From contig NC_008609.1 of NCBI RefSeq assembly GCF_000015045.1, forward strand, positions 1,116,001 to 1,180,000: a stretch of 64,000 nt of DNA, in the 5' to 3' direction. Both the position numbers and the translations under genes were made by a program. Below the pieces are notes generated by a model that saw only the letters and a program-made list of their open reading frames with translations, was not told the DNA's origin and made no database searches. This DNA comes from Pelobacter propionicus DSM 2379. Lineage in GTDB: Bacteria; Desulfobacterota; Desulfuromonadia; Geobacterales; Pseudopelobacteraceae. Positions 13,791 through 22,531 of the stretch are shown here, piece by piece. Numbering within the stretch: position 1 is the stretch's first letter; each line of letters opens with the position of its first letter.

Positions 13791-15113
13791 ATGAGCATAT
13801 ACACCAAAATTCAGCAGGCAATCGCACGGAAAATAGGCAAGAGCACCGAGCTGTCCCACTGGAAGGACTGGCGCTGGCAGCTGCGCCATGCCATACGGGA
13901 TATCGCCACCTTTGAACGGCTGCTTGGCATCAAATTCGATGCTGAACGAAAGCGGGAACTGGAAGAAACCATCGATAAGTTTCCCCTCTCCATAACCCCC
14001 TACTACCTCTCCCTGATCGACCGCACGAACTATGCCGTCGATCCCGTCTTCCGCCAAGCCTTTCCCTCGCCGGATGAGCTGCAGGTCACCTCCTGCGAAC
14101 ACGAGGACCCGCTTCACGAGGATGCCGACAGTCCGGTGCCGGGAATAACCCACCGCTATCCCGACCGGGTGCTGTTCCAGGTCAGCAACATCTGCTCCAT
14201 GTACTGCCGCCACTGTACGCGCAAGCGCAAGGTGGGGGACGTGGATTCGATTCCGGGGAAGGACGAGATCATGCTGGGGCTGGAGTACATTCGCCGCACC
14301 CCGGTGGTCCGCGACGTGCTCCTCTCGGGGGGGGACCCGCTGATGCTTCCCGACAGCCATCTGGACTGGATCCTGAGAGAACTGCGCGCCATCCCCCATG
14401 TGCAGGTGATCCGTATCGGCAGCCGCATGCCGGTCGTGCTTCCCTACCGCATCACTCCCGGCCTGATCCGCGTTTTGTCCCGGTATCATCCGCTCTGGCT
14501 GAACACCCATTTCAATCACCCCCGGGAGATCACCACGTCGGCCAGGGAGGCGCTGTCCCGCCTGGCCAATGCCGGCATCCCCCTGGGCAACCAGACCGTA
14601 CTTTTGGCGGGAGTGAACGATTGTCCCATGATCATCAAGACTCTGATGCAGCGACTGGTGGAGAACCGGGTGCGACCCTACTACCTCTACCAGTGCGATC
14701 TTTCCGAGGGACTTTCCCACTTCCGCACGCCGGTGGGCAAGGGGATGGAGATCATGGAGAGCCTGGTCGGCCATACCAGCGGTTTCGCCGTGCCGACCTA
14801 CGTCATCGACGCGCCGGGAGGAGGGGGCAAGATCCCGGTCATGCCCAACTACCTGATAACCCTGGCAACCAACAAGGTGGTGCTGCGCAACTACGAAGGG
14901 GTGATCACCACCTACCAGGAGCCGGAGAAGTACGAGGCGGTGTTCTGCGACCGCAACTGCGCCGATTGTCGCCTGGAGCTGAATATGGAAGGAACCGGAG
15001 AGTATTCGGCCGTCGGCATCGAACGCCTGCTCTCCGATTTTCACGAAACCATCTCTCTGACTCCGGAGGACAATATCCGCATGAAACGGAGGAGCAATGG
15101 CAGACCGGATTGA
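13791..15113 (+). CDS. ablA: Lysine 2,3-aminomutase
   Basis: AblA converts L-alpha-lysine to beta-lysine with a radical SAM and PLP mechanism. This 440-residue protein has the cluster motif [13 protein letters not shown] near residues 135-147 (CxxxCxxC), [12 protein letters not shown] for SAM binding, and the PLP-binding Lys region [13 protein letters not shown] near residue 340. It is followed with a 17-base overlap by the acetyltransferase AblB, so the pair would make N-epsilon-acetyl-beta-lysine, a compatible solute. The start follows CAGGAG. Confidence 0.95.
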
Positions 15114-15987
15114 ACTGATCGGGCGCTCGGTGATCCAGCACGGCCCTGGCAATGACCGGGTCTATCTGATGAAGCAGCACCCGGACGATGCTCCCGCTCT
15201 CCCCGAAAAACTGGATAGGCTGGCAAGCGAGGAAGGCTACTCAAAGATCTTCGCCAAGGTCCCCTCCGGATCGGCGGGCCATTTTCTCGCCGCCGGCTTC
15301 GGGGTGGAGGCGGAGATCCCCGGTTTCTATCCCACCGGAGAACCGGTCTGCTTTCTGGGGAAGTACCTGACGCCGGAGCGTCGCCGGGAGAAGCGTCCCG
15401 CCCTTGTCCGGGAAGTGCTCTCCGCCGCCTCGACCGCGGCAGGGCGTCCGGGGGAGGGAAAGCCCCCTCTTCCCGATGGGTACTCCTGGGCTGTGGCGGG
15501 GGAAGGGGATGCGGATGAGTTGGCTGTGCTCTTCGGCCAGGTCTTCGATAGCTACCCCTTTCCCATCCATAAGGCCTCGTTCATCGTCAGTTCTATGAAG
15601 GGGGCGACGCTCTATTTCGGTGTGCGTCAGGGAGAAGGTGTGGTCGCCGCTTCATCTGCCGAGATGGATCCGGACTCCAAGAGCGTGGAGATGACCGATT
15701 TCGCCATCCTGCCCGCATATCGCGGACAGGGGATCGCCCTGTTTCTGCTGCAACGGATGGAGGAGGCCATGGAACAGCGGGGCATCCGCTCCTTTTTCAC
15801 CATTGCCCGGGCCTATTCCTTCGGCATGAACATCACCTTTGCCCGAAACGGTTATCACTTTGCAGGCACCCTGACAAATAATACGAATATTGCCGGCAGC
15901 CTGGAGAGCATGAATGTCTGGTACAAGACGCGTCACTACTATGCCGCTGATATGGATTCGCGCTCATGGCGTTGTCGAACATACTGA
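15097..15987 (+). CDS. ablB: Beta-lysine N-acetyltransferase
   Basis: This 296-residue protein has a C-terminal GNAT domain ([28 protein letters not shown] near residues 195-222, with the acetyl-CoA pyrophosphate loop RGQGIA). The N-terminal half ([16 protein letters not shown]) is typical of AblB. It acetylates the epsilon amino group of beta-lysine to give the osmolyte. It overlaps the end of ablA and has GGAGG before its ATG. Confidence 0.93.
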
Positions 15988-17846: not shown

Positions 17847-18356
17847 TCAGCCACCTGCTTTGCTGAACTCCGCCAGTAGCCTCTCGGCGCATGCCGCCAG
17901 TTCCGGGTAGTTGTGCCGGCCGAGGCGCATGCAGTCCACTGCCGGGTGATGGCAGACCAGGCAGGGGCGGGGGGGGAGTCCCAGGGAGCCGCGGCCGATC
18001 TGGACGCCGCTTCTGTCGTAGACGTCCAGGTCGATCAGTCGCGCCACAGGGCTGCTCTCCTCCTGGGAGACGCAGAGCCGCTTCACCTGGGCGGCTTCCT
18101 GACCGGCAGCCAGCAGGGCAAAGGGGCCCAGCCGGTCCGAGCCCCGCTCCACCAGGTGCAGATGGGGGAGGCTGGTCTCCAGCCGTTCCAGTGCCCAGGA
18201 AAAGAGCTCTTCCGTACCGGGTGGGGTCTTGCACTCACCGGGGATGTTGAGGGAGAGGAATATGAAAGCGGGGAATGTGCCGCTATGGCGGTCCAAGAGC
18301 TCCTGTCTGGCCTCCCGGGCCGCCAGGATGCTACTCCTTGACTCTGCGGATGACAT
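17847..18356 (-). CDS. citX: CitX-type holo-ACP synthase (apo-citrate lyase phosphoribosyl-dephospho-CoA transferase)
   Basis: CitX attaches the phosphoribosyl-dephospho-CoA arm to the CitD acyl carrier. This protein of about 169 residues keeps the family features: AAREARQELLDRH near the N-terminus, LGPFALLAAG, RLIDLDVYD and PPRPCLVCHHPAVDCMRLGRH near the C-terminus. The start used here (18356) overlaps citF by 26 bases. A Shine-Dalgarno AAGGAG is followed by ATC rather than ATG right at the citF end, so the true start is uncertain. The companion CitG, which makes the precursor, is not in this window. Confidence 0.82.
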   Translation of the reverse strand: MSSAESRSSILAAREARQELLDRHSGTFPAFIFLSLNIPGECKTPPGTEELFSWALERLETSLPHLHLVERGSDRLGPFALLAAGQEAAQVKRLCVSQEESSPVARLIDLDVYDRSGVQIGRGSLGLPPRPCLVCHHPAVDCMRLGRHNYPELAACAERLLAEFSKAGG

Positions 18357-19869
18357 CGATGATCGACCCGTCGCGGTACTCCACCAGCCCGACCACATCG
18401 TCCTCGAACTCCAGCGGCCGCGGTACGCCGGTCAGCTCGTAGATCTCGTCGCGCAGCTCGCGGATCTCCTTGACCGGCGCCCGGCGCCGGAGCAGTTCTG
18501 CCTTCAGCTCCGGGTGGCGGGGATTGACGGCGATACCCCGCTCGGTGACCACCACGTCCACCGTCTCCCCCGGCGTGGTGATGGTGGTGACCTCGTCCCT
18601 GATGATGGGCAGGCGCCCCCGGATGGAGGGGGCGACAATGATGGAGAGCTTGGCCCCGGCGGCGGTGTCGCTGTGGCCGCCGGTGTTGTGCAGCAGATAG
18701 CCGTTGGATTCGGTGTTGACGTTGACATTGAAGTCCACGTCCACCTCGGTGGCGCTCAGGATCACGCAGTCCAGACGGTTGACCACCGCCCCGCTGTTGA
18801 AGGGATTGGCGTACATGGTGGCGCTGATCTCCTGGTGGTTGCGGTTCCTGGCGATGGATTCCACCGCTTTCAGGTCGAAGCACTGCACGTCGAACAGCGC
18901 CTGGAACAGCCCCTCCTCCAGCATGTCCACGAAGTGCCCGGTGATGCCGCCGCAGCCGAAACTGCCCCTGATGTTCCCCCGGCGCATCAGGCCCCGCACC
19001 TGTTCGGCAACGGCCAGGGATATGCCGCCGGTGCCGGTCTGGAAGGAGAAGCCGTCTTTCAGCAGGCCGGAGGACTCGATTACTTGCGCTGCGTGCTTGG
19101 CTATCTGCAGGCCGATGGGGTCGGTGGTGATACGGGTGGTGGTGGAGACGATCTTGGCCGGGTCGCCGATGGATTCCACCGCAACCACATAGTCCACCAC
19201 GCTCTGGGAGATGCCCACCGGTACGGCTGGGTAGGGAACTAGGTTGTCGGTCAGCGCCACCACCGTGCGGGCGTGCTGGGCATCCACCATGGCGTACCCC
19301 AGACTGCCGCAGGCCGAGGGGCCGGAGAAGCCATTGAAGTTGCCGTAGTCGTCGCAGCAGGGGGCGGCCAGGAAAGCCACGTCCACCCCTACCTCCCCGG
19401 TGATCAGGGCGCGAGCCCGCCCGCCGTGGGAGCGGACAATGACCGGACAGCTGAGCTCGCCCTTGGAGATCAGCTCGCCGATCAGGCCGTTGACCCCGCA
19501 CTCCAGGGAGGTGATCACCCCCTTGCGGATGGCGGGGATGATCTCGGCATGCACCGGATGGATGGAGCTGGAGGCGATCCTGATGTCACGGATACCCAGT
19601 GCGTCGATCTCCCTGATCACCTGGTTGAGGACGTAGTCGCCGTTGCGCAGGCTGTGGTGGGTGGAGATGGTCATGCCGTCCTTAAGTCCCGAGGCGATGA
19701 TCGCCTCCCGGATGCCGGAGAGCACCTTCCTGTCGTTATGGGGGATGCGCTTGGTCGGCCGGGTGGCCCGCAGGGTGTGGGGCATGAGCGACCAGGGATC
19801 CTGGTAGGGGATCAGCTTACTGCCGGCAAAGCTGTCGGGGATGGTGCGCCCCAGGCTATTCAGCGCCAT
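18331..19869 (-). CDS. citF: Citrate lyase alpha subunit (citrate CoA-transferase)
   Basis: CitF moves the acetyl-thioester from CitD to citrate, forming citryl-ACP. This 512-residue protein matches the family length and starts MALNSLGRTIPD. Family motifs seen include THHSLRNGDYVLN, IHPVHAEIIPAIRKGV and FGCGGITGHFVDMLEEGLFQ. It overlaps citE by 14 bases and citX by 26 bases, as expected in a tightly coupled operon. The ATG at 19869 follows GGAGGAT. Confidence 0.94.
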   Translation of the reverse strand: MALNSLGRTIPDSFAGSKLIPYQDPWSLMPHTLRATRPTKRIPHNDRKVLSGIREAIIASGLKDGMTISTHHSLRNGDYVLNQVIREIDALGIRDIRIASSSIHPVHAEIIPAIRKGVITSLECGVNGLIGELISKGELSCPVIVRSHGGRARALITGEVGVDVAFLAAPCCDDYGNFNGFSGPSACGSLGYAMVDAQHARTVVALTDNLVPYPAVPVGISQSVVDYVVAVESIGDPAKIVSTTTRITTDPIGLQIAKHAAQVIESSGLLKDGFSFQTGTGGISLAVAEQVRGLMRRGNIRGSFGCGGITGHFVDMLEEGLFQALFDVQCFDLKAVESIARNRNHQEISATMYANPFNSGAVVNRLDCVILSATEVDVDFNVNVNTESNGYLLHNTGGHSDTAAGAKLSIIVAPSIRGRLPIIRDEVTTITTPGETVDVVVTERGIAVNPRHPELKAELLRRRAPVKEIRELRDEIYELTGVPRPLEFEDDVVGLVEYRDGSIIDVIRRVKE

Positions 19870-20776
19870 GGATATCCTCCTCGTGAATGATCTCGTCCAC
19901 CAGGCCGTGGGCAAAGGCGGTGCGCAGCACCCGCGCCGCGCGCTTGACCACCGGCGCGTCGATCATCTTGCCCTTCAGGGAGATGACGCCGGTGCCCATG
20001 GTGCGGGCGCGCTTGATGGCGTCGATGACCTGCAGGGCATAGTCCACCTCTTCCTGCTTGGGGGCGAAGACGTCGTGGATCACGTCGATCTGGCGCGGGT
20101 TGACCATGCACTTACCGGTGTAGCCCAGTTTCTTGGCCAGCTCGGTCTCCCGGCGCAGTCCCTCCATGTCGTTGAGATCGGCGAAGATGGTGTCGATGGC
20201 CTGGATGCCGGCGGCCTTTGCTGCCCAGAGTATGGTCATGCGGGCGTTGAACAGCTCCTCCCCCCCCTTGGTGCGCTCGATCTCCATGCTGGCGGTGTAA
20301 TCCTCCGCGCCGAAGCCGAGTCCGAAGACCCGTTTGGAGGTGCGGGCGATGTCGTTGGCGTTGATCACCCCCTGGGCGCTCTCGATGGAGGGGAGGATGC
20401 GGAAGCGGCCGATCTCCAGCCCCAGCTCTTCCTCGAATTCGGTCAGCATGGTGTCCAGGTGCTCGACGATCTCGGGCGTGTCGGCCTTGGGCAGGCGGAT
20501 GCCGTCGGGAAGAAAGGGGAGCACCGCCTTCAGGTCGTGATAGGCCCACTTGCTGTCCAGGGGGTTGATGCGTACCAGGATCTCCTTGTTGCGCCTGGTG
20601 TGGCTCTCCAGGAAGCGTTTCACCAGGATGCGGGCGGCGTCCTTTTCGTTCAGCGGGACGGCGTCTTCAAGATCGATGATCACGGCGTCGCAGGTGAACA
20701 GCGGCACGTTCTGCAGCATGGACGGCATGTTGCCCGGCACGTAGAGCAGCGACCGGCGCAGCTGGAATTCCGGCAT
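19856..20776 (-). CDS. citE: Citrate lyase beta subunit (citryl-ACP lyase)
   Basis: CitE cleaves citryl-ACP to oxaloacetate and acetyl-ACP. This 306-residue TIM barrel has the substrate-Arg segment RRSLLYVPGN near residue 7, the metal Glu in FRILPSIESAQGV, and FGAEDYTASM with the metal Asp. All catalytic elements of the HpcH/CitE fold are present. It is joined to citF by a 14-base overlap. Confidence 0.95.
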   Translation of the reverse strand: MPEFQLRRSLLYVPGNMPSMLQNVPLFTCDAVIIDLEDAVPLNEKDAARILVKRFLESHTRRNKEILVRINPLDSKWAYHDLKAVLPFLPDGIRLPKADTPEIVEHLDTMLTEFEEELGLEIGRFRILPSIESAQGVINANDIARTSKRVFGLGFGAEDYTASMEIERTKGGEELFNARMTILWAAKAAGIQAIDTIFADLNDMEGLRRETELAKKLGYTGKCMVNPRQIDVIHDVFAPKQEEVDYALQVIDAIKRARTMGTGVISLKGKMIDAPVVKRAARVLRTAFAHGLVDEIIHEEDIHGAE

Positions 20777-20779
20777 GGT

Positions 20780-21250
20780 TTACTCCTCGTTGAAATAGAT
20801 GGTGGGAATGCCGCCGGATGTGGAGTGGTGACGCTCGACCCCCTCCACCACCAGCTCGGTCAGCACGATCTCGCAGGTGGCGAACACCCGGGCATCGAAG
20901 AGGTGGCCGCCGATGACATCGCAGGATGATTTTCCGGCCATGATGTGCAGGTGGCAGTCGGGGGTGTTGGTCTCGTCGGGAACGATGTTGCCGGTCAGGC
21001 TGAGCAGCTCCAGCGGCCCCTCCAGCAGGTGGGTGTTGACCCGGGCCGGGGTGATGGGGAGCTTGGCCCCCGATTTGATGCCGCGCAGGCAGACGTCCCG
21101 CACCGAGCCGACGGCGGAGAGGATCACTGCATAGTGGATGTTTTCCGTGAGCGCGAACTGGGTGATGCACTCCACCAGGCTCTCGCCCGGAATGATCTTG
21201 AGGATGAAGCGCCGCCCCTGTTTGTATTCCTTGTATCTGAAGCCACTCAT
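20780..21250 (-). CDS. PPC/DUF296-domain protein inside the citrate lyase operon
   Basis: This 156-residue protein fits the PPC (DUF296) domain: YAVILSAVGSVRDVCL with the Gly-x-Val turn, then LHIMAGKSSCDVIGGHLFDARVFATCEIVLTEL near residues 100-132. The PPC domain is known as a trimeric beta-alpha fold, fused to AT-hooks in plants and alone in bacteria, where its role is unclear. Here it is between citE and citD with gaps of 3 and 4 bases, on the same strand. That position suggests a part in citrate lyase assembly, metabolite sensing or control. No AT-hook is present. Classic cit operons do not have this gene. Confidence 0.8.
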   Translation of the reverse strand: MSGFRYKEYKQGRRFILKIIPGESLVECITQFALTENIHYAVILSAVGSVRDVCLRGIKSGAKLPITPARVNTHLLEGPLELLSLTGNIVPDETNTPDCHLHIMAGKSSCDVIGGHLFDARVFATCEIVLTELVVEGVERHHSTSGGIPTIYFNEE

Positions 21251-21254
21251 CCCT

Positions 21255-21518
21255 TCACACCTCCCTGGCCCGTTGCAGCGCCGCTTCCAGGCGCGCCTCG
21301 ATGGCGTAGTCCAGTGCGCCCCGGTCGCTGATGCGGATTCTGCCCCTGGTGACCCCCTGCTTGGCCAGCACCTGTCCCAGCTTGGCGCGGATCAGGTGCT
21401 CGAACTGCTTCTTGACCGTGGATTCGATCTCCACGGTCAGCTCGTCCGCCGGTTCAACGAACACCATCAGGTCGCTGGATTGCATGGTGCCGGCCTGTCC
21501 CTTTTTCGTGATTGTCAT
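21255..21518 (-). CDS. citD: Citrate lyase acyl carrier protein (gamma subunit)
   Basis: CitD carries the acetyl group on a phosphoribosyl-dephospho-CoA arm. This 87-residue protein has AGTMQSSDLMVFVEP, in which Ser14 matches the modified Ser of known CitD proteins, and GALDYAIEARLEAAL near the C-terminus. It overlaps citC by four bases (ATGA type). Confidence 0.93.
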   Translation of the reverse strand: MTITKKGQAGTMQSSDLMVFVEPADELTVEIESTVKKQFEHLIRAKLGQVLAKQGVTRGRIRISDRGALDYAIEARLEAALQRAREV

Positions 21519-22531
21519 CTGAAGACTCCCCTGTCATGGCGTAGTTTGTCTCGAATGGGATCGGCTTCGCTGCTCATCAGAAAAGCTGACGTGCTGTCCG
21601 GCACCAGCAGTTCCAGCGTCGCACGGTCATTGTTTGCCAGCGCCTGCCGCACCCGCGAGGCGCTGATGACCTCTCCGCCCGCGCAGATGCGCTCCACCTC
21701 GGTGAGGGTTATGCCATGGGGGGGGAGCAGGCTCTTCATGCATTCATTGTAGCGGAAGGTCAGGCCGCAGCAGGGCTCGTTGCCCACGAATCTACGGGTG
21801 ATGCGAAAAAAGGGGGCGATGCGGGAGGCGAACAGGGTCAGGTCCAGTTCCATCTGGATGCGGGCCACCGGGTCGTCTCTCTTCAGGAAGTAGGTGGGAA
21901 AGGTGGCGCCGCTGATGGCGTAGTGGGAGGTGCCCAGAACCAGGACGTTGGCCAGGTCCCCCACCCCCTGGCGCACCAGCTGGAGGCGGACCTGAAAGGG
22001 GAATGCCGAGCGATCCTCGGCCACCACGAACAGGTAGAGGGTGTCCACCTGCCGGGCCGCGCTTTCCACCAGGTGCCGGTGGCCGCGGGTGAAGGGGTTG
22101 CAGTTCATTACCACCGCGCCGTTGGTTCCGTTCCTGATCAGAGAGCGCTGGGATGCGAGCCAGCGCTCAAGCCCCCTGCCGTATTCCAGGAGCGCCACTT
22201 GCTCCTGGCTGGCCAGAAGCGAGAAGTTGAGCGACTGGAAGGTGGTAACGTGCTCCGGCTTGGTGAAGACGAACAGGGATTCGAAGCCGGCGGCGAATCC
22301 GCGCCTGACCAGCTCGGTGACCATCCTGGCCAGGAGTTCCTGCCCCTGGTGGGACGGCTCAACGGCGAACATTTTAAGGATGTTGTCGACCCGCGCGCCT
22401 ACTGCCACGAGTTTGCCTTGTTCGTGGATGCCCAGCAGCTCGTCGAATCCCTCTTCGAAGGAGAGTCCGCTTTGCTCCACGAGCCCGTGCGCCGCCCGTA
22501 TGTCAGGGGGAGAGTGCAGTTCCGTAATCAT
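21515..22531 (-). CDS. citC: [Citrate lyase] ligase
   Basis: CitC acetylates the CitD prosthetic arm, using acetate and ATP, and activates the complex. This 338-residue protein has an N-terminal GNAT-like domain (VEPSHQGQELLARMVTEL near residues 57-74) and a nucleotidyltransferase domain with MNCNPFTRGHRHLVE near residues 142-156 (the HxGH-like site) and ISASRVRQAL. It is the first gene of the operon and is preceded by a candidate promoter with an operator. Confidence 0.92.
   Translation of the reverse strand: MITELHSPPDIRAAHGLVEQSGLSFEEGFDELLGIHEQGKLVAVGARVDNILKMFAVEPSHQGQELLARMVTELVRRGFAAGFESLFVFTKPEHVTTFQSLNFSLLASQEQVALLEYGRGLERWLASQRSLIRNGTNGAVVMNCNPFTRGHRHLVESAARQVDTLYLFVVAEDRSAFPFQVRLQLVRQGVGDLANVLVLGTSHYAISGATFPTYFLKRDDPVARIQMELDLTLFASRIAPFFRITRRFVGNEPCCGLTFRYNECMKSLLPPHGITLTEVERICAGGEVISASRVRQALANNDRATLELLVPDSTSAFLMSSEADPIRDKLRHDRGVFR

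Follow-up and report, generated by a model that had tools for sequence, protein, structure and literature searches.

The citrate lyase operon of Pelobacter propionicus DSM 2379 contains a gene for a PPC (also PCC or DUF296) domain protein between citD and citE. Very probably this protein serves one lineage of citrate lyases as a dedicated partner that defines their clade, was gained once at this position and has been kept since. For its role we tentatively propose a lyase-coupled, metal-dependent beta-keto-acid enzyme that acts on oxaloacetate.

The citrate lyase operon of the window

The window, which is the whole stretch of DNA analysed here, comprises 64,000 nt (NC_008609.1, positions 1,116,001 to 1,180,000 of the forward strand; genome label G000). 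With the Pfam and NCBIfam models the citrate lyase operon set citC, citD, citE, citF and citX was found together in the window, CitE and CitX scoring below their equivalog cut-offs. All genes are on the same (minus) strand in the order citC-citD-PPC-citE-citF-citX. The citrate lyase ligase gene citC is located at 21515..22531 (TIGR00124: 276 bits, cut-off 262) and citD, encoding the acyl carrier protein or gamma subunit, at 21255..21518 (TIGR01608: 80 bits, cut-off 63.5). The beta subunit gene citE (19856..20776) scores 344.5 bits against TIGR01588, with a cut-off of 443.4, and its product has the C-terminal tail typical of the PPC-positive clade. The alpha subunit gene citF (18331..about 19869), whose start was picked by comparing relatives, reaches 665 bits against TIGR01584 (cut-off 501), scored on the longer open reading frame 18331-19914. 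The holo-ACP synthase gene citX (17847..18398) passes PF03802 (134 bits, cut-off 25) and lies below TIGR03124 (97.5 bits, cut-off 105.25).

The PPC gene (20780..21250, minus strand) starts with ATG and encodes 156 amino acids, of which residues 13-133 match the PCC domain (Pfam: PF03479) with an E-value of 2.7e-28 and 99.1 bits (cut-off 25). A whole-genome profile search gave this protein as the only PCC-domain match in the genome. The original prediction had described a PPC/DUF296 gene tightly packed between citD and citE on the same strand, and both the coordinates and the Pfam match agree with it: the gap is 4 bases between citD and PPC and 3 bases between PPC and citE. A Shine-Dalgarno-like GGAGGTG (21258..21264, minus strand) lies within the final codons of citD, 7 bases ahead of the PPC start codon, and a GAGGAG (20783..20788, minus strand) in the last PPC codons could serve citE. 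Because these sites sit in the ends of the preceding genes, citD, PPC and citE look translationally coupled. On the plus strand, convergent with the cit operon, positions 13791-15987 hold a lysine 2,3-aminomutase-like gene (judged by eye) followed by a GNAT acetyltransferase gene, which we take to be the usual pair for N-acetyl-beta-lysine synthesis.

The E. coli K-12 operon citC-citD-citE-citF-citX-citG has the same genes, order and tight packing and encodes a holo-ACP-based lyase as well. The operons described here differ from it by the additional PPC gene between citD and citE, a longer C-terminal tail of CitE, a CitE below the equivalog cut-off and a CitF in a separate clade.

Distribution and probable single origin of the PPC gene

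Among 97 relatives (own genome included) a close PPC protein was found in 15 (63-100% identity), all of which have CitF. CitF is present in 17 of the 97, and the two without a close PPC have a divergent lyase. In the class Desulfuromonadia, CitF exceeds the cut-off in 50 of 244 genomes, 44 of which carry citD-PPC-citE, a few of the operons being broken by contig ends. The six other genomes (G070, G077, G516, G566, G538 and G573) have divergent citE-citF pairs and no PPC anywhere in the genome. In the Deferribacterota, the phylum of Seleniivibrio, CitF is above the cut-off in 10 of 50 genomes, all ten with citC-citD-PPC-citE-citF-citX-citG. Nine of 195 genomes of the Myxococcota, the phylum of Anaeromyxobacter, have CitF; three of them, Anaeromyxobacter oryzae and two MAGs, have PPC, four have the divergent type, one has a fragment and in one (G722) a stretch is missing. 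Left out of the counts were G484 and CitF matches below the cut-off, the contig-end fragment G836, and nine CitF matches less than 3 bits over the cut-off (G271, G267, G152 twice, G366, G115, G313, G420 and G264), which were taken as other CoA-transferases.

A scan of named genomes with two peptide patterns (one genome per species, 84,980 species) returned 61 PPC loci. The 36 close ones (53-88% identity) are all in cit operons and belong by title to Desulfuromonadia, Deferribacterota, Myxococcota and, with one genome, Eisenbacteria. The 25 weak ones (28-45% identity, often partial matches) have no cit gene in the surrounding DNA, though some are on short contigs where a distant cit gene could be missed. 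Citrifermentans bremense (L145) is among the PPC-positive loci, and a locus from a MAG labelled Neptunomonas (L154) may be a mis-binned contig.

Combining the class, the Deferribacterota, the Myxococcota and the loci of the named-genome scan results in 61 distinct PPC-positive operons. The order citD-PPC-citE on one strand was found in 86 of the 86 fetched loci in which all three genes were recognised, which together with the window represent 60 of the 61 distinct operons. This constant order in 86 loci excludes a chance association. The 61st operon (L165, Eisenbacteria) reads PPC-citE-citF-citX-citG, with no citC and no citD in the 6 kb upstream, and its PPC protein lacks both R56 and K59 (described below), so that it is an exception to the order as well as to the arginine rule. 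The original prediction had asked whether the gene order is conserved in other genomes; a pairing unique to this strain is thus excluded, and the suggested functional tie between PPC and citrate lyase is strongly supported by the conservation across phyla.

Citrate lyase loci without PPC are also found. A full-length CitF without any such PPC in the genome occurs in eight genomes that belong to the same phylum but not to the class; in three of these, citC, citD, citE, citX and citG could be recognised too. There is no PPC in the cit locus of E. coli K-12, nor in those of Enterococcus, Streptococcus, Klebsiella, Secundilactobacillus, Gluconobacter, Azospirillum, Rhizobium, Cupriavidus and Fusobacterium from a plasmid collection, from which 9 of the 91 CitF-bearing records were fetched. 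In the 72,556 records of this collection, the PPC protein has four weak matches with at most 32.5% identity. The claim that classic cit operons lack the gene is thereby borne out for E. coli K-12 and for the PPC-negative loci examined.

We built a maximum likelihood tree of 88 CitF proteins by a quick method with SH-aLRT support, omitting L125 (from G516) and L279, whose CitF is frame-broken. The 61 PPC-positive sequences together with G722 form one clade with a support of 100, apart from 17 PPC-negative and 9 divergent-type sequences; nine of the PPC-negative rows (L263-L266, L269, L278, L281-L283) are not complete citCDEFXG sets. With G722 set aside, one change of state is required. Because the CitF proteins of PPC-positive operons form one fully supported clade, the PPC gene looks to have been gained once. 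The G722 locus (L228, Myxococcota) is placed inside the clade beside the Anaeromyxobacter group. At this locus citC continues into citF in another frame, the citD, PPC and citE genes are missing and no PPC was found elsewhere in the genome; either an assembly error or a real secondary loss of the whole stretch would account for this.

A different arrangement is present in four Myxococcota loci (L229-L232), where one open reading frame encodes CitE with an N-terminally fused CitD-like domain, beside a divergent CitF, and no citC, citX, citG or PPC was recognised nearby. These loci represent a different lyase type and clade without PPC, to which the divergent citE-citF pairs of the six class genomes are similar. 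An idea that PPC tracks only holo-ACP lyases, for which these six genomes had been seen as carrier-less, was dropped, since L229-L232 have CitD fused to CitE.

In the 54 of 61 operons with all seven genes, the mean pairwise identity is 0.65 for PPC, 0.67 for citD, 0.755 for citF and 0.76 for citE, and 0.52, 0.46 and 0.41 for the maturation proteins of citC, citG and citX. In one species pair (G000-G001), dN/dS is 0.097 for PPC, 0.064-0.123 for citD, citE and citF, 0.245 for citC and 0.459 for citX. With an identity near that of CitD and a dN/dS in the range of citD, citE and citF, PPC appears to be constrained about as tightly as a lyase subunit. The rank correlations of pairwise identity between PPC and the single subunits, 0.48-0.68 over all pairs, fall to between -0.05 and 0.09 in the 440 deep pairs, except for citC (0.39), and are uninformative on the binding partner.

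The CitE proteins of the clade have two further characters. Their C-terminal tail resembles EExI[YH]G, and a loose pattern for it fits 57 of the 61 PPC-positive operons, the four misses being three broken or mis-framed reads and one near match. It fits none of the 19 readable CitE tails outside the clade, where two more end early; a DEEGN stretch is shared by two lactic-acid-bacterial CitE tails. Moreover, all six clade CitE proteins that were read score 335-349 bits, below the citE equivalog cut-off of 443, as do two of four outside the clade. Because of these scores, the substrate of the clade lyase could be another acid, for example citramalate; CitF, CitC and CitD of the window operon, on the other hand, pass their own cut-offs.

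Fold and conserved residues of the PPC protein

The AlphaFold model of the PPC protein has a pLDDT of 84 and a pTM of 0.78. Its best structural matches are PPC structures (2dt4, Z 17.8; 3htn, Z 17.6; 2h6l, Z 17.5), of which 2h6l (AF0104) is titled metal-containing. The next matches are acetolactate decarboxylases with Foldseek E-values of 4e-4 to 4e-3 and VIA Z scores of 8.1-10.2. Then follows human PTD012, a zinc-containing fold, with a Z score of 5.4 that possibly reflects just a common arrangement; unrelated structures score at most 4. The acetolactate decarboxylase fold indicated by this model is the most informative lead, and the original prediction had missed it.

With AF0104 (2h6l), PH0802 (2dt4) and the Salmonella protein 2hx0 the window protein shares the fold, the HxH...GGH motif and the residues E81, E127, G48 and G147; it differs from them by a short insertion and a RGIKxGAxxPI loop, at 25-34% identity. 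Residues H100, H102 and H116 (HLH...GGH; 20903..20953, minus strand) form a predicted metal-site triad, and the loop R56-G-I-K59-x-G-A-x-x-P-I...R70 (21041..21085, minus strand) is typical of lyase-linked PPCs; both coordinate ranges were derived from the residue numbers. All 61 lyase-linked PPCs have H100, H102, G114, G115, H116 and E127. In 36 other PPCs, restricted to matches of 25-150 bits, the first five of these residues and E81 are found in all 36 and E127 in 34, but this control is skewed: a GGHL-containing pattern had been used to find 25 of the 36, which makes the motif look too widely shared, and the other 11 were obtained without it. The weaker L040 and L042 were left out, L040 being without the third histidine. 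R56 is found in 60 of 61 lyase-linked PPCs versus 7 of 36 others; these seven are all among the 11 not found by the pattern, and six of them are near-copies from one genus. The RGIKxGAxxPI loop in this form occurs in the lyase-linked set only, and altogether 28 positions, the start methionine included, are nearly invariant in lyase-linked PPCs and rare in the others.

Residue 110 of the window protein (20921-20923) is a cysteine where the other 60 of the 61 lyase-linked PPCs have glycine, a private change in the conserved K-S-S-G-E motif. The nearest PPC group outside the lyase-linked set, L079-L081, has parts of the RGIKxGAxxPI loop in common with it. The PPC gene adjoins aldehyde ferredoxin oxidoreductase, ThiS-like and BKACE genes in L079 and an aldehyde dehydrogenase and a PanB-like gene in L081, and in L079-L081 there are also periplasmic-binding-protein transporter genes nearby, a neighbourhood that suggests a catabolic role.

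Acetolactate decarboxylase decarboxylates a beta-keto acid with the help of a metal. In a profile alignment with ten plasmid acetolactate decarboxylases, H100, H102 and H116 fall on three histidines invariant in all ten and R56 on an arginine present in nine, which we take to be the catalytic Arg145 of the Bacillus brevis enzyme. Of six profile alignments, made locally and globally with each of three PPC sets, five gave this register and one was degenerate; against the acetolactate decarboxylase L277, H100, H102, H116 and R56 correspond to H199, H201, H212 and R150 in an overall weak alignment. The profile match itself is also weak, with a probability of 22% and E 1e-3 for the lyase-linked PPCs, and 5-6% and E 0.007-0.008 with other PPCs included or alone. 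At E 0.001, PF03479 is the sole Pfam match of the PPC protein; the acetolactate decarboxylase family, presumably PF03306, does not match. The two protein families are thus alike in fold (4bt2; budA; VIA Z 8-10 in rounded values) and in three histidines and one arginine in register. They differ in length, with 156 amino acids in the PPC protein and 209-237 residues in the solved decarboxylase chains, at 9-16% identity in the VIA alignments. The N-terminal lobe of the decarboxylase with the conserved T63 and E70 and the C-terminal E259 (L277 numbering) are missing in the PPC protein; the local profile alignment spans only residues 119-217 of L277, and the PPC protein is not long enough to hold the N-terminal lobe.

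According to a 2025 PNAS commentary (PMC12435205), PTD012 (C11orf54) was recognised that year to be a 3-dehydro-L-gulonate decarboxylase with zinc on three histidines, and is structurally related to the acetolactate decarboxylases; its cleavage of p-nitrophenyl acetate had earlier led to its annotation as an ester hydrolase. It (1xcr) resembles the PPC protein in the three-histidine site, as predicted for the latter, and would resemble it in beta-keto-acid decarboxylation; it differs in being a weak structural match, eukaryotic, 313 residues long and without a citrate connection.

Possible roles of PPC in the citrate lyase lineage

The mechanism that we tentatively put forward builds on the association with the operon, the single clade, the constraint, the fold and the correspondence of residues shown above. 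PPC would be a small metal-dependent beta-keto-acid enzyme with the acetolactate decarboxylase fold, whose metal would be held by H100, H102 and H116, aided by R56. This site would take the oxaloacetate released by CitE and convert it to pyruvate and CO2, and the removal of oxaloacetate would pull citrate cleavage forward. PPC would in this way stand in for the oxaloacetate decarboxylase or malic enzyme of some other citrate lyase loci, and it may dock on the lyase with the clade-specific CitE tail as a candidate site. Besides the fold and the residues, the neighbourhood of PPC-negative operons supports the oxaloacetate reading, since four of the seven PPC-negative loci with annotation have a malic-enzyme or oxaloacetate decarboxylase gene close to citrate lyase. 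So does the mostly negative search for OAD_beta: 44 of 57 PPC-positive genomes, among them that of the window, gave no match, although some of these genomes are incomplete.

Several observations stand against it. OAD_beta is present in 13 of the 57 PPC-positive genomes and lies no more than about 3 kb from citF in three, and the available part of the Geobacter bemidjiensis genome paper gives two biotin-type oxaloacetate decarboxylases for that organism (PMC2996986); decarboxylation by PPC would be redundant where other oxaloacetate decarboxylases exist. The same part of that paper suggests a role of these lyases in a reverse TCA cycle, for which destroying oxaloacetate would be counterproductive. 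The histidine triad appears to be general to prokaryotic PPCs and would as such tell nothing about citrate. If the substrate were citramalate, the product would be pyruvate, which is not a beta-keto acid. Finally, the gene has hardly ever been lost or moved, as would be expected of an obligate subunit at least as much as of a downstream enzyme.

Such a subunit, one of two strong rivals of the oxaloacetate enzyme, is possible, if doubtful: the PPC trimer would bind trimeric CitE together with CitD, perhaps via the CitE tail, and would be needed for building or stabilising this variant of the lyase, without having to be catalytic. PPC domains form trimers and CitE-family proteins are trimeric. 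The retention and the fixed position between the gamma and beta subunit genes, a constraint like that of the lyase subunits and unlike that of the maturation proteins, and the CitE tail confined to the clade all point this way. A pure scaffold, however, would not need the metal triad that every lyase-linked PPC keeps, classic lyases assemble without PPC, and the tail may be a coincidence, as all clade-specific characters come from one ancestor. The other strong rival, somewhat less likely, is an acyl-CitD thioesterase, whose metal site would remove the acetyl group, or a wrong acyl group, from CitD and so either switch the lyase off or edit it. A comparable off-switch, a citrate lyase deacetylase activity, has reportedly been described from Rhodopseudomonas gelatinosa and R. 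palustris, and we know of no gene for it. The PPC gene lies directly 3' of citD; PTD012 has the esterase activity noted above; and at least one operon host, G. bemidjiensis, has citrate synthase and a TCA cycle according to the available part of its genome paper, so that an active lyase could be wasteful (PMC2996986). The gene is nevertheless kept in Malonomonas rubra (L166), in which a switch would be less useful. M. rubra is presumably a fermenter. Neither a Rhodopseudomonas- nor a Rubrivivax-titled locus was found by the two peptide patterns of the named-genome scan, and thioester hydrolysis is not known from any PPC. Rather improbable, in turn, is a metabolite sensor with citrate, oxaloacetate or glutamate in the metal pocket that would control the lyase allosterically; a conserved basic loop and a metal-type pocket in a dedicated partner would suit it, but by sequence it is indistinguishable from the enzyme readings.

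Three further readings carry little weight. The database name of bacterial PPC proteins would make the protein a DNA-binding regulator of the operon, and plant AT-hook proteins do have PPC domains, but Pfam finds the PCC domain alone in the 156 amino acids, the fold and metal motif are of an enzyme type and the gene lies mid-operon between subunit genes, so we consider this very unlikely. The original prediction had noted that CitG is absent from the operon and that PPC could conceivably have a part in making the cofactor. The absence holds for the window operon, but citG sits elsewhere in the same genome, on the same contig (G000:C3:474078-474818, E 2.3e-46). Moreover, citG follows citX in 41 of the 44 class PPC operons, the exceptions being G000 and G001, where it is missing beside the operon, and G626, where the contig ends first; it is unlinked in Anaeromyxobacter oryzae, and in G631, one of seven genomes searched for CitG, none was found. 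A replacement of CitG by PPC was rejected on these grounds, and even a helper of CitG or CitX in making or attaching the phosphoribosyl-dephospho-CoA cofactor is highly improbable. That PPC is an unrelated hitch-hiker frozen inside the operon agrees with its single origin, which amounts to one insertion event, yet is hardly credible for a gene that several phyla have retained and that strong purifying selection maintains, when citG has moved out of the operon in two lineages or more.

In the open-access literature searched we found no account of a citrate-lyase-linked PPC. The available part of the G. bemidjiensis paper lists 'citCDEFXG' as Gbem_3862-Gbem_3856, seven consecutive tags for six named genes, the seventh presumably being the PPC gene; it also reports citG and citX from G. 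sulfurreducens, which has no lyase, and proposes that the cofactor may have another use as well (PMC2996986). PPC is not mentioned in the available part of a Deferribacter genome paper (PMC13186404).

Returning to the oxaloacetate enzyme, its wider form is a speculation that we hold with considerable doubt. The lyase-linked PPCs would then make up a new family of oxaloacetate (beta-keto-acid) decarboxylases, small, metal-dependent and without biotin, which would dock on CitE and complete the lyase reaction, and by extension many prokaryotic PPC/DUF296 proteins named 'DNA-binding' would be keto-acid metal enzymes of the acetolactate decarboxylase superfamily.

The components of citrate lyase, a textbook enzyme, were believed to be fully known, and here a whole clade, spanning Desulfuromonadia, Deferribacterota, Myxococcota and one Eisenbacteria genome, has one more that is conserved. 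For the PPC/DUF296 domain, labelled 'DNA-binding' in bacterial records, this gives a concrete metabolic context and a chemistry that can be tested.
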